A program made the translations under genes and the position numbers. A stretch of DNA of 64,000 bases from Flavobacterium ammonificans (GTDB taxonomy: Bacteria > Bacteroidota > Bacteroidia > Flavobacteriales > Flavobacteriaceae): NCBI RefSeq assembly GCF_020885975.1, contig NZ_AP025183.1, forward strand, positions 1 to 64,000. Reading direction: 5' to 3'. Below are positions 3,883 to 59,849 of the stretch, piece after piece; position 1 is the first letter of the stretch, and the number at the start of each line of letters is the position of its first letter. The notes beneath the pieces are model-generated. The model made no database searches. It saw only the letters and a program-made list of their open reading frames with translations, and was not told the DNA's origin.

Positions 3883-4494
3883 ATGCTCATTATAGGAATT
3901 GCAGGAGGAACAGGAAGTGGAAAAACAACTGTAGTCAATCAAATCGTAAATGAATTACCAGAAACTGAAGTAGGAATTATTTCACAAGATTCTTATTATA
4001 AAGAGAATGTTGGAATGACTTATGAAGAAAGAGCTGCAATTAATTTTGATCATCCTAGATCAATAGATTTTGAGTTATTGGTAGAGCATCTTAAAGAATT
4101 AAAAGCAGGTAATAACATCAATCAACCCGTTTATTCTTTTGTTTCTCACAATAGAACAAGCGACACTGTTTTTACTCACCCCAGAAAAGTAATGGTTGTT
4201 GAAGGAATTTTAATTTTAACCAATCCCGAATTGAGAGACCTTTTTGATGTAAAAATTTATGTTCAAGCTGATCCAGATGAGCGTCTAATTCGTAGATTAA
4301 AAAGAGATATCGCAGATCGTGGTAGAGATATGAATGAAGTACTCAACAGATACCAAACTACTTTAAAACCAATGCACCAGCAATTTATTGAACCTACAAA
4401 AGCATTTGCCGATATTATCATCCCTAACGACAAATACAACACCGTAGCGATAGATGTAGTTCGTGCCGTAATTAATCAAAAATTAAACGTTTAA
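3883..4494 (+). CDS. udk: Uridine kinase
   Basis: Phosphorylates uridine and cytidine to UMP and CMP in pyrimidine salvage. At 203 aa it has the normal length of bacterial Udk. The P-loop GGTGSGKTT is at 8-16, followed by SQDSYYK and the nucleoside-binding INFDHP motif. VVEGILIL and RLKRDIADRGRD cover the lid and Walker B area. The gene has its own -7-like element and is followed by a 128-base gap holding a structured element on the other strand. Confidence 0.95.
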   Translation: MLIIGIAGGTGSGKTTVVNQIVNELPETEVGIISQDSYYKENVGMTYEERAAINFDHPRSIDFELLVEHLKELKAGNNINQPVYSFVSHNRTSDTVFTHPRKVMVVEGILILTNPELRDLFDVKIYVQADPDERLIRRLKRDIADRGRDMNEVLNRYQTTLKPMHQQFIEPTKAFADIIIPNDKYNTVAIDVVRAVINQKLNV

Positions 4495-4540: not shown

Positions 4541-4610
4541 GGAGCTTTTTCCCGCTTTACGTTACAATCCATTCTAAAAAGAATGGGATTTTCACTGCAA
4601 TCGGGGCTAA
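4541..4610 (-). ncRNA. Structured RNA-like element, copy B (possibly Flavo-1 class)
   Basis: On the minus strand this reads TTAGCCCCGA at the 5' end. Then come AATCC, a hairpin with CATTC/GAATG arms around TTTTTA, then GATT, and the block CGTAAAGCGGGA (4550-4561). It ends AAAAGCTCC. The blocks TAGCCC, ATCC-[hairpin]-GAT and CGTAnAGCnGGA recur in the same order at 57.9-58.0 kb on the plus strand. From memory this layout resembles the Flavo-1 RNA motif of Flavobacteria; that name is unverified. The element lies in the udk-divIC gap and points away from divIC. Confidence 0.6.
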
Positions 4611-4622
4611 AATATAGGAACA

Positions 4623-4949
4623 ATGACAAATCCGCTTAAAAACAAATCTTGGTTTAAACTATTGAGCAACAAATACATTTTAGTATTAGTGTTTTTTACG
4701 GGCTGGATGCTTTTTTTAGACAACTATTCGTATTTCGATCATCGCTTCTTAGACAATCAAATCGACGAATTAGAAGACAATAAATCGTACTATCAAGAAG
4801 AAATCAAGAAAGACAAAAGGCATATAAAAGAACTCAAGAATATTGAATATGTTGAGAAATATGCACGTGAAAAATATTATATGAAGAAAGATAGTGAAGA
4901 CATTTATATCATAGAGTTTGAAGGTGACAGCGCCATCAAAACAAAATAA
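4623..4949 (+). CDS. Septum formation initiator family protein (DivIC/FtsB-like)
   Basis: Small bitopic membrane protein of 108 aa. A short cytoplasmic N-terminus is followed by one membrane segment (about residues 15-33, YILVLVFFTGWMLFL) and a periplasmic coiled coil (about 40-75) rich in Asp, Glu and Lys. The family bridges FtsL and FtsQ in the divisome. EYVEKYAREKYYMKK matches the conserved end of the DivIC domain. It lies 38 bases before mutA and may be cotranscribed with it. Confidence 0.88.
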   Translation: MTNPLKNKSWFKLLSNKYILVLVFFTGWMLFLDNYSYFDHRFLDNQIDELEDNKSYYQEEIKKDKRHIKELKNIEYVEKYAREKYYMKKDSEDIYIIEFEGDSAIKTK

Positions 4950-57116: not shown

Positions 57117-57842
57117 CTATTGTAAAATGACTTCCAAATTAGTGCTTTCGGGATTAGTTACAACTTCAATAAGAGAAAACGTCACTACTAAAGATTTTTT
57201 GTCAGCACTAATAACAGCTTTGGTATTTGAAACGGATTGAATTGGTTTTGGAAAATAGTATTTCAACTCAAAGCTTTGTTTCAATGGAAATTTAGAAATA
57301 CGCTCCTTAACAGTAGCCAACTCGTCCTGCTTTTTTTTGAGTTCAACAGGATCTGTTATTTTGACGATGCGATGAAATCGGGTTCCATCAAATGAGAATG
57401 CAACTGAATAATAATGTTCTTCGGCACTTAACGCATAATTATTTTGAATATTATCAGCGTAATCTTCTGTTTTATACAAATCGGCGACTTCAGAAATGGT
57501 TTTGAATTGCTGCGAAAGCTGTGTTCGAAACTCTTTTTCGTAGGAACTTTTCTTGATCTTGACCTTAACAGGAAAGTGCTTTTCGTATACCGATTTTTCA
57601 AAAGGCGTTAATTTTGCAAAGGTTTCTCGATATTTCTTGGCATAATCTTGAAATACATAAGTGGTATCTTGATACTCTTCCTCTTTAGAATAATTTTCTC
57701 CTGCTATTAACTGATAACTTTGTTCATCACGCATTTCTTCAACCAAAATACTTCCACTTCCATCAGAATTTAAGTGAATTGTTTCGGTTACTTGACAACT
57801 ATGAAGTGTGATTATAAAAAAAGCACAAAAGATTCTTTTCAT
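57117..57842 (-). CDS. Hypothetical lipoprotein
   Basis: 241 aa. The N-terminus MKRIFCAFFIITLHSCQ has a lipobox (LHSC, Cys16), so the protein is probably lipidated. IHLNSDGSGSILVEEMRDEQ suggests a beta-rich start. The middle is charged and helical (KKKQDELATVKERISKFPLK). No catalytic motif is recognised. It is the only gene between lipB and the 57.9-kb element and is transcribed away from that element. Confidence 0.7.
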   Translation of the reverse strand: MKRIFCAFFIITLHSCQVTETIHLNSDGSGSILVEEMRDEQSYQLIAGENYSKEEEYQDTTYVFQDYAKKYRETFAKLTPFEKSVYEKHFPVKVKIKKSSYEKEFRTQLSQQFKTISEVADLYKTEDYADNIQNNYALSAEEHYYSVAFSFDGTRFHRIVKITDPVELKKKQDELATVKERISKFPLKQSFELKYYFPKPIQSVSNTKAVISADKKSLVVTFSLIEVVTNPESTNLEVILQ

Positions 57843-57911
57843 TTCGATTTGGGTTTTGGGTTAGGATTTCAAATATACAAAAGGTTTTATAGGTTTTGAA
57901 AATAAAAACGT

Positions 57912-58035
57912 CTTTTCTAGCCCTTCCCGAAGCTTCGGGAGAAGCGGCATCCTTTTTTAGGGGACGACGGCTGAGGCTCTCGAAGCCAAAGTAACCTAAA
58001 AAAGATAGAGCGTATAGCAGGACTAAACGGGATAA
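57912..58035 (+). ncRNA. Structured RNA-like element, copy A (possibly Flavo-1 class)
   Basis: Starts with CTAGCCC (57917-57923). A GC-rich palindrome TCCCGAAGCTTCGGGA follows, then GCGGCATCC and a 10-bp stem CTTTTTTAGG (57952-57961)/CCTAAAAAAG (57995-58004), whose inner part has a GGCT/AGCC hairpin. It ends with GAT and the block CGTATAGCAGGA (58011-58022). Copy B at 4.5 kb shares TAGCCC, ATCC-[stem]-GAT and CGTAnAGCnGGA. It lies between a lipoprotein gene and lysS, about 75 bases before the lysS promoter. Confidence 0.65.
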
Positions 58036-58088
58036 AAAACGAAAATTACTGCTCTTAAAAAAACCAAAATCATTTTCAAATATTGAAA

Positions 58089-58118
58089 TTGCCACGTTTT
58101 TAAATTTAACTATCTTTG
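58089..58118 (+). promoter_or_regulatory. Promoter of lysS
   Basis: TTG (58089-58091), 19 bases, then TATCTTTG (58111-58118). Both match the Bacteroidota consensus exactly. The ATG is 21 bases further. Confidence 0.75.
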
Positions 58119-58139: not shown

Positions 58140-59849
58140 ATGGCATTATCCGAACAAGAAATTTTACGTAGAGAAGCACTTACCGAATTACGCAATTTAG
58201 GTATTGAGCCGTATCCAGCAGCCGAGTTTACCACCACCGCTTATTCGAGCGAAATCCTAGCCAACTTTGAGAAGTACGAAGGTAAGGAAGTGGTTTTAGC
58301 GGGACGATTGATGGGGAAACGCATCATGGGAAAGGCATCATTTGCAGAATTGAAAGATGCTGAAGGACGTATTCAAGTCTATGTTTCGAGAGATGACATT
58401 TCGGATGATGAAGAGAAAACGATGTACAATGTGGTTTTCAAAAAACTATTGGACATTGGTGATTTTATTGGGGTTCGTGGAACTGTTTTTAAAACACAAG
58501 TAGGCGAAATCTCCGTTCATGTATATGGATTAACGGTTTTGGCGAAAGCCTTGAAACCGCTTCCTGTAGTAAAAATGGATGCCGATGGAAAAATCCACGA
58601 TGCCTTTGCTGATCCAGAACAAAGATACCGTCGTCGTTACGTAGATTTAACGGTGAACGACCATGTAAAAGATACCTTCATTAAAAGAACCAAATTGTTC
58701 AATGCGATGCGTTCGTTTTTTAATGACAAAGGGTATTTGGAGGTGGAAACACCGGTTTTACAACCGATTCCAGGTGGTGCTGCAGCTAGACCTTTTATCA
58801 CGCACCACAACTCGCTTGACATTCCGCTATACATGCGTATTGCCAATGAGTTGTATTTAAAAAGATTGATTGTGGGTGGATTTGAAGGGGTATATGAGTT
58901 CTCGAAAAACTTCCGTAACGAAGGAATGGACAGAACACACAACCCAGAATTTACCGCTATGGAAATATATGTAGCCTACAAAGACTACAACTGGATGATG
59001 AACTTTACCGAAAACCTGCTAGAGCACTGTGCTATTGGGGTTAACGGAACAAGTGAAGTGACTTTTGGCGAACACAAAATTAATTTCAAAGCGCCATATG
59101 CAAGAGTGACAATGACGGATTCTATCAAACACTTTACTGGTTTTGATATTTCTGGCAAATCAGAAGCGGAATTGTTTGCAGCTGCTAAAGGCATGGGAAT
59201 TGACGTGGACGAAACCATGGGTAAAGGAAAATTGATTGACGAAATTTTTGGCGCTAAATGCGAAGGAAATTACATTCAGCCAACTTTCATCACGGATTAT
59301 CCAAAAGAAATGAGTCCGCTGTGTAAACAACACCGCGACAATCCAGAACTGACTGAACGTTTTGAATTGATGGTATGTGGAAAAGAGGTTGCCAATGCCT
59401 ATTCGGAATTGAACGACCCAATTGACCAAAGAGAACGTTTTGAAGACCAAATGCGTTTGGCTGAAAAAGGTGACGATGAAGCGAATGGTGTTATTGACGA
59501 AGATTTCTTGCGTGCTTTAGAATACGGTATGCCGCCAACTTCTGGATTAGGAATTGGAATGGACCGATTGATGATGTTCTTGACGAACAATTCGTCCATT
59601 CAAGAAGTATTGTTCTTCCCGCAAATGCGACCAGAGAAAAAGCAAGTTCAAATTGAATTAACCGCTGAAGAGAAATTAATTGTTGACATGTTGAAAGCTA
59701 ACAACAACCAAATGGATTTAGGCGAATTGAAAGCCAAATCAGAATTGAGCGGTAAAAAATGGGATGCTGCTACTAAAGGCTTATCACAACACAAATTGAT
59801 CAAAGTGAGTGTTACTGGCGAAAGTAAAATAATGGAATTGATTGGGTAA
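58140..59849 (+). CDS. lysS: Lysyl-tRNA synthetase, class II
   Basis: 569-aa class II aminoacyl-tRNA synthetase. The N-terminal OB-fold (about 50-150, VVLAGRLMGKRIMGKASFAELKDAEGRIQVYV) reads the anticodon. Class II motif 2 is in FRNEGMDRTHNPEFTAMEIYVAY and motif 3 in GLGIGMDRLMMFLTN. A C-terminal tail of about 70 residues follows FFPQMRPE, longer than in E. coli LysS and typical of Bacteroidota. It is followed by a 21-bp perfect palindrome. Confidence 0.97.
   Translation: MALSEQEILRREALTELRNLGIEPYPAAEFTTTAYSSEILANFEKYEGKEVVLAGRLMGKRIMGKASFAELKDAEGRIQVYVSRDDISDDEEKTMYNVVFKKLLDIGDFIGVRGTVFKTQVGEISVHVYGLTVLAKALKPLPVVKMDADGKIHDAFADPEQRYRRRYVDLTVNDHVKDTFIKRTKLFNAMRSFFNDKGYLEVETPVLQPIPGGAAARPFITHHNSLDIPLYMRIANELYLKRLIVGGFEGVYEFSKNFRNEGMDRTHNPEFTAMEIYVAYKDYNWMMNFTENLLEHCAIGVNGTSEVTFGEHKINFKAPYARVTMTDSIKHFTGFDISGKSEAELFAAAKGMGIDVDETMGKGKLIDEIFGAKCEGNYIQPTFITDYPKEMSPLCKQHRDNPELTERFELMVCGKEVANAYSELNDPIDQRERFEDQMRLAEKGDDEANGVIDEDFLRALEYGMPPTSGLGIGMDRLMMFLTNNSSIQEVLFFPQMRPEKKQVQIELTAEEKLIVDMLKANNNQMDLGELKAKSELSGKKWDAATKGLSQHKLIKVSVTGESKIMELIG

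Follow-up and report, generated by a model that had tools for sequence, protein, structure and literature searches.

Flavo-1 elements at the lysS and udk sites of Flavobacterium ammonificans: possibly an intergenic DNA quasi-palindrome rather than a small RNA

Upstream of lysS, Flavobacterium ammonificans carries an intergenic element (copy A) whose 10-bp T/A stem is surrounded by short sequence blocks. The initial annotation of the window (the first 64,000 nucleotides of contig NZ_AP025183.1) took this element to be an RNA under structural constraint, and suggested the Flavo-1 motif as its possible identity. Is it a transcribed RNA, or a feature of the DNA itself? The reading that we prefer, and to which we give a probability of roughly one half, is that Flavo-1 is a REP-like intergenic DNA quasi-palindrome rather than a separately transcribed small RNA, and that it may act locally as a hairpin.

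Copy A and the lysS and udk sites

The features considered are listed in Table 1. The two sides of the 10-bp stem of copy A pair perfectly and are closed by ATCC (57949-57952) and GAT (58004-58006), and the palindrome and the 3′ block described in the initial annotation lie where it had placed them. That annotation had also reported the same blocks, in the same order, on the other strand of a second element (copy B); this holds for TAGCC, AATCC, GGAT and CGTAAAGCGGGA, but not for the palindrome, which is absent from copy B.

Table 1. Coordinates of the elements, their parts and the neighbouring genes in the window
Feature	Position	Strand	Remarks
udk	3883-4494	+	flanks copy B; NCBIfam over cut-off
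Copy B, Flavo-1 (RF01705)	4544-4612	-	65 bits, over the cut-off of 42
Unnamed gene	4623-4949	+	other flank of copy B; no NCBIfam match
Divergent gene	57117-57842	-	no NCBIfam match at E <= 1e-5
-7 box of divergent gene, TATATTTG	57870-57877	-
Copy A, full Flavo-1 model match	57915-58028	+	39.5 bits, cut-off 42
TAGCCC, 5′ end of element	57918-57923	+	short outer stem, 5′ side: AGC (57919-57921)
Inserted hairpin in 5′ arm, TCCCGAAGCTTCGGGA	57925-57940	+	single exact occurrence in the genome
T-rich side of 10-bp apical stem, CTTTTTTAGG	57952-57961	+	partner 57995-58004
Nested tip hairpin, GGCTGAGGCTCTCGAAGCC	57969-57987	+	head CTGAGGNNCTCGAAG (57971-57985) belongs to a separate repeat family
A-rich side of 10-bp apical stem, CCTAAAAAAG	57995-58004	+
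3′ arm of basal helix, CGTATAGCAGGA	58011-58022	+
3′ extension past the Rfam model	58023-58056	+	ends CTGCTCTT; by eye
Predicted lysS promoter, TTG-N19-TATCTTTG	58089-58118	+	downstream of copy A
lysS, lysine--tRNA ligase	58140-59849	+	NCBIfam over cut-off

When the window was searched with the Rfam Flavo-1 model, copy B exceeded the curated search threshold and copy A, aligned with the full model (positions 1-76), fell short of it (E = 4.9e-7, 501 bases searched). The score of copy A is low because two extra hairpins are inserted. Both modules are absent from most Flavo-1 copies; TCCCGAAGCTTCGGGA takes the place of part of the 5′ arm, and modules resembling it were seen by eye in two further copies of this genome (L022 and L023) and in three relatives (L089, L173 and L392). 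Folded alone, copy A was weakly better than its shuffled versions (z = -1.67; 13 of 200 shuffles at least as good), and support for the structure therefore comes from comparison, not from fold energy. A 21-bit match inside the neighbouring coding gene (57693-57774, minus strand) is most likely due to chance.

The suggestion of Flavo-1 proved right. In the same place and orientation as copy A, matches over the cut-off were found in 18 of 20 lysS loci hand-picked for having an element, the exceptions being L089 and L162. The conserved framework of the family, or chassis, consists of short covarying helices with purine-rich internal loops between them, the tip and inner domain being exchangeable. 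A simple chassis pattern was matched at the lysS site in 36 of 109 loci, always on the lysS strand (36/36), a proportion that is no genus frequency, the loci being the best 80 of 594 and the best-matching 29 besides our own, with duplicate-looking pairs among them (L072/L154, L076/L157, L068/L151 and L071/L153); this count omits degenerate elements such as L089, L091, L100, L161, L162 and L173, and the reverse-strand match L121 looks spurious. Three loci of Polaribacter and Tenacibaculum (L124, L128 and L137) have the chassis with another inner part. By eye, a stretch resembling the 3′ extension of copy A trails the element in many relatives at this site. In L083 (1956-2033, minus strand) a second strong Flavo-1 match of 82.1 bits lies about 300 bp from the lysS-site copy, on the opposite strand.

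Copy A shares its core sequence, helices and block order with the Flavo-1 motif (RF01705; described in PMC2864571, of which excerpts were available), and copy B and many relatives at the site of copy A exceed the cut-off; unlike them, copy A scores below it and contains the two inserted hairpins. Argued from its position rather than from its own score, copy A can be counted as a member of the family. It is a diverged, remodelled Flavo-1 copy at an old Flavo-1 address.

At the udk site, 8 of the 29 loci from the genus, counting copy B itself, matched the chassis pattern; among the others, judged by eye, a few retain remnants, and in several the junction is clean and some 10-20 nt long. The element thus stands in the same place and orientation in many species and is cleanly absent from others.

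Structure and covariation

The comparison was based on 127 elements, namely 27 copies of this genome and the best 100 of about 150 places elsewhere (one genus mate supplied 20 of them, others the remaining 80). For the count of core pairs, 112 of the 127 were parsed by pattern, and 15, including copy A, were dropped. In these 112 elements, the five core pairs were occupied as follows: (i) CG 71, GC 26, AT 12 and TA 1, (ii) CG 42, TA 33, GC 31 and AT 4, (iii) AT 52, TA 46 and GC 13, (iv) GC 98 and AT 11, and (v) CG 70 and TA 38.

Covarying pairs, for which the initial annotation proposed to test aligned copies, are present. In 32 of the 73 class-1 cores, the structure that we drew pairs 97.1% of cells, and all 500 shuffles scored lower on each of five measures, as did every slid version of the structure; it was drawn from the same sequences, which favours it in the slid control, and copy A, being unparsed, lies outside this covariation set. 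The short outer stem, taken over 32 relatives, has 85.4% of its cells paired, with little covariation and no double-sided changes.

Two classes of element were distinguished by their outer parts. Class 1 has the short AGC/GCT outer stem alone. In 34 of the 39 class-2 elements, the 5-mer preceding the core has a complementary sequence no more than 70 nt from the 3′ arm, versus 55 of 868 mismatched pairings; this 5-mer is GCGTT in 25 of the 39 and otherwise a variant such as GCGTG, GCATT, GGCTT or GTGTT. The class-2 outer pairing usually encloses a GACC..GG hairpin, forming a three-way junction. The full element exceeds the 76-position model RF01705, which is without the outer stem and without this third hairpin of class 2. 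The conserved internal loops are purine-rich on the Rfam strand.

Genomic sites, exchangeable hairpins and mobility

In this genome (2.27 Mb, one contig), 29 Flavo-1 matches were found at E <= 10, of which 27 had E <= 0.011 and 20 exceeded the cut-off; the last two look like chance. Matches at E <= 10 were also obtained in 10 of 14 control genomes, none of them over the cut-off. At E <= 1e-4, RF01705 was present in 94 of 149 Flavobacteriaceae genomes versus 0 of the 14 controls. Up to 29 candidates per genome were scored, and the per-genome counts are therefore to be read as "at least".

Of the 127 elements, 118 lie between two open reading frames called by a simple script, and 8 overlap one. 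Clustering of the neighbouring proteins revealed sites shared between genomes: (i) a homogentisate dioxygenase-like gene (12 loci) beside the gene for 4-hydroxyphenylpyruvate dioxygenase (9), (ii) sufD and sufS (10 each), (iii) genes for a metal ABC binding protein and its presumed ATPase (6 each), (iv) phoH and a gene that we take to be purC-like (6 each), and (v) a presumably aroC-like gene (6) beside that of a presumed symporter (4). Among the neighbours, lysS, udk, sufS, sufD and the 4-hydroxyphenylpyruvate dioxygenase gene were identified by NCBIfam over cut-off; hmgA, PhoH and the binding protein, with NCBIfam scores below cut-off, are likely identities. Such intercistronic sites are common to several genera, and the family adjoins many unrelated genes.

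At the sufD|sufS site, a strict pattern was matched in 12 of 90 genomes, a count in which L349 looks spurious and L330 is degenerate, and from which L281 (found with the Rfam model as L238) is missing. By eye, these ends recur in about 11 further loci, where the inner domain differs. In L279, L282, L292, L297 and L303, all upstream of sufS, the Flavo-1 ends surround a different conserved inner domain, GGCAGTCGCTCT..GAGCTCCAACAAATGCC, and these five gave no Flavo-1 match at E <= 0.01; elements with this domain are possibly an undescribed sister family.

Several copies of this genome lie near rRNA genes. Three class-2 copies (L015, L016 and L017, at genome positions 1061236, 2148007 and 1952097) share 1.3-1.7 kb of flanking sequence, beyond which a 16S rRNA gene is found in L015, and hairpins CTGAGCTTGTCGA.G stand directly beside all three. 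L024, L025 and L027 are short variants of 53 nt with the inner part TAGCTAC..GTAGC, and two of them (L025 at 1067775 and L027 at 1945618) are near 5S and 23S rRNA genes.

Counting each shared site once leaves 86 elements: 59 are flanked by co-directional genes, 12 by convergent and 15 by divergent ones. A possible tie between element strand and gene orientation (67 -- versus 23 ++) shrank to 36 versus 23 once shared sites were collapsed, and no conclusion was drawn from it.

These sites bear on the main rival of a DNA quasi-palindrome, a cis-acting mRNA element: downstream of a stop codon, or between two genes of an operon, its hairpin in the transcript would shield the mRNA preceding it, keep the cistrons apart or slow down ribosomes at the gene end. 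Gene-pair sites are shared across genera, and the element there often leaves about 11 nt to the stop codon and 8-10 nt to the start of the following gene; a distance of 30 nt or less was found for 35 of 83 facing 3′ gene ends, versus 14 of 89 facing 5′ ends (shared sites collapsed). Such mRNA roles have been reported for REPs of E. coli, and ribosomes stall at REPs that lie within 15 nt of a stop codon (PMC12306157, from the part of the text available). However, copy A and the 15 divergent sites do not fit such a role, the orientation to genes remains mixed after collapsing, and nearness to 3′ ends may merely reflect longer 5′ regions. We regard the mRNA element as doubtful, though the long conservation of Flavo-1 between operon genes is suggestive of an mRNA function.

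The hairpins within the element are related to repeats found elsewhere. The head CTGAGGNNCTCGAAG of the tip hairpin of copy A has 25 exact copies in this genome, versus 0 for a reversed control pattern, and occurs in 8 of 149 family genomes. Twelve of the 25 heads lie inside Flavo-1 hits, which cover about 0.1% of the genome, and 11 of these are in the same orientation; in one copy (L003) the tip hairpin is inverted. Most of the remaining heads form two clusters (L063 8700-13200 and L064 6400-7200, at about 1156700-1161200 and 1676400-1677200 in the genome), where hairpins with this head but differing stems are arranged in arrays and pairs. Away from Flavo-1, these hairpins are a REP-like family. 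Flavo-1 itself appears to change shape by swapping hairpins.

ERIC-type repeats are long imperfect intergenic palindromes with internal insertions, and Flavo-1 resembles them by this description. It likewise resembles the REP/BIME elements of enterobacteria and pseudomonads (PMC12306157 and PMC3733652, as far as these texts were available), which are imperfect palindromes scattered outside genes, frequently close to gene ends; Flavo-1 too is a repeated imperfect palindrome outside genes. It differs from them in being longer, in having fewer copies and in being kept at shared sites across genera. The GTAG tag of REPs is absent from the class-1 alignment, which starts with (T)TTAGCC, and CGTC was not seen there either. 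No RAYT is associated with it in this genome, whose two Y1 genes are flanked neither by Flavo-1 nor by the CTGAGGNNCTCGAAG tip hairpin. These genes (L030 and L031, at 1476639 and 1681159; one with an internal stop) stand beside other palindromic repeats, e.g. ATCCCTAACGGGAT and AGAGCCGTAGGCTC.

A still-mobile selfish repeat of MITE or REP type, without a cellular role and moved by Y1/RAYT or another transposase, would account for dispersed copies whose similarity stops near the element ends, for the coexistence of occupied and clean sites, and for the greater frequency of Y1_Tnp in genomes with Flavo-1 (46 of 94, versus 13 of 55 without; Fisher p = 0.003). Yet the genome's own Y1 genes are unflanked, 9 of the 20 genomes with at least 15 Flavo-1 hits have no Y1 match, and identical sites are kept across genera, which makes this explanation rather unlikely. 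Y1/RAYT transposases are weakly associated with Flavo-1 and not required. The RAYT/REP origin suggested by the CTGAGGNNCTCGAAG hairpin was rejected on the first two of these grounds, the weak positive association remaining, and no transposase or donor mechanism was found for Flavo-1.

RNA or DNA: strand, promoters and mode of change

Base pairs in RNA columns as variable as these would generally be expected to show more G-U than was found here. Of 560 core cells, 548 were Watson-Crick, 7 G-U, 2 C-A and 3 other; the apical stems gave 1033 Watson-Crick, 16 G-U, 0 C-A and 24 other. Most elements had been chosen with an RNA model of the Rfam strand, which bears on G-U being more frequent there than C-A; at the lysS sites, chosen by position, the counts were 5 and 2, with a few rows misparsed. 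We used these column counts because a symmetric count (21 isolated G-U, 47 C-A) is dominated by one internal-loop column, with C-A in 78 of 112 elements.

The energies of whole elements are equal on the two strands (-23.53 versus -23.51 kcal/mol; the plus strand better in 69 of 127). Class-1 cores without their tips depart from such symmetry: of 73, 59 fold better on the reverse strand and 14 on the plus strand. The purine-rich loops of the Rfam strand argue that a single strand of this sense, whether RNA or DNA, is folded. An intrinsic terminator was rejected on inspection, a T run preceding the tip and an A run following it on both strands.

Promoters were sought as TTG-N17-23-TAnnTTTG, a sigma-A-type pattern (the only type covered) in which the TTG box and the spacing are those we presume to apply. 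The -7 consensus TAnnTTTG is the one stated for F. psychrophilum (PMC9723704, in the part available). The pattern was present in 59 of 108 lysS upstream regions, and the -7 box alone in 106. Before the elements it occurred at about background (1/127 on the plus and 2/127 on the minus strand, versus 19/2540 random windows; 1/127 and 4/127 in 150-nt windows), as did the -7 box alone (8/127 and 10/127, versus 139/2540), and it was found in 0 of 31 lysS-site elements on either strand.

A small RNA that acts in trans and has a promoter of its own would agree with the typing of RF01705 in Rfam (Gene; sRNA), with the y/n/n given for RNA, cis-regulatory and switch in the Flavo-1 row of the table of Weinberg et al. 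(PMC2864571), and with the purine-rich loops and the G-U excess of the Rfam strand. In the portion available, one review (PMC9029176) discusses Flavo-1 where it deals with the most abundant families of small RNA, giving no function, and no function is stated in the available portions of PMC9723704 and PMC2864571 either. Against such an RNA are the background level of sigma-A-type promoters and the many dispersed copies per genome. In addition, the F. psychrophilum transcriptome, in the available part of PMC9723704, has Flavo-1 matches indistinctly sense or antisense, many of them outside transcribed regions, although several 5′ regions coincide with matches. Judged from these sequence patterns and published transcripts, a separate Flavo-1 small RNA seems unlikely. 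The arms of the element are kept matched, as the initial annotation's structural constraint would have it, while the RNA nature of the element is not borne out by the promoters, the few G-U pairs and the strand-equal energies. A literature search for the repeat string gave no match within a limited collection.

That copy A is a leader of the lysS mRNA, or acts in it like a riboswitch, is highly improbable: the element is kept upstream of lysS, and on its strand, in many species, but the family adjoins many unrelated genes and the predicted lysS promoter sits between copy A and the gene, so that copy A, lying between two predicted divergent promoters and outside both predicted transcripts, is probably no lysS leader. 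For the divergent gene, the -7 box was found but not the complete pattern of two boxes.

The REP-like intergenic DNA quasi-palindrome is favoured because of the Rfam matches, the shared lysS, udk and intercistronic sites, covariation with few G-U pairs, strand-equal energies and background promoters, together with the CTGAGGNNCTCGAAG heads within Flavo-1, the transcriptome (PMC9723704, in part) and a palindrome in L162. In the lysS upstream region of that locus, a perfect 25-bp palindrome stands where relatives have a looped stem. It is a candidate template-switch event, as switching that homogenises the two arms would leave such a palindrome; both the homogenisation of arms and the inversion of spacers have been described (abstract of PMC8604942). 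What speaks against this reading is that purine-rich loops and more G-U than C-A on the Rfam strand are expected if that strand folds as RNA.

If Flavo-1 is such a quasi-palindrome, template switching in the course of replication may be largely what keeps its arms complementary, for which one clear case and the scarcity of G-U argue. Other palindromes would enter its hairpins, and selection would keep specific mismatched loops. At divergent sites such as lysS, the local hairpin could serve DNA topology or as an insulating spacer, and inside operons Flavo-1 may act as an mRNA hairpin. We put forward only tentatively the more specific proposal of a modular, address-bound palindrome, in which a chassis fixed across genera has its inner domain and tip replaced by palindromes and its arms rewritten by template switching, the covariation stemming largely from a DNA mutation process.

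With no promoter, kept addresses and swapped hairpins, the question of RNA or DNA becomes directly testable for Flavo-1, and the search model would be improved by the fuller structure, with its outer stem and third hairpin. The family also carries a warning, as Watson-Crick covariation with hardly any G-U can come from the rewriting of arms. If the address-bound palindrome is true, other RNA families known from covariation only could be DNA elements too.
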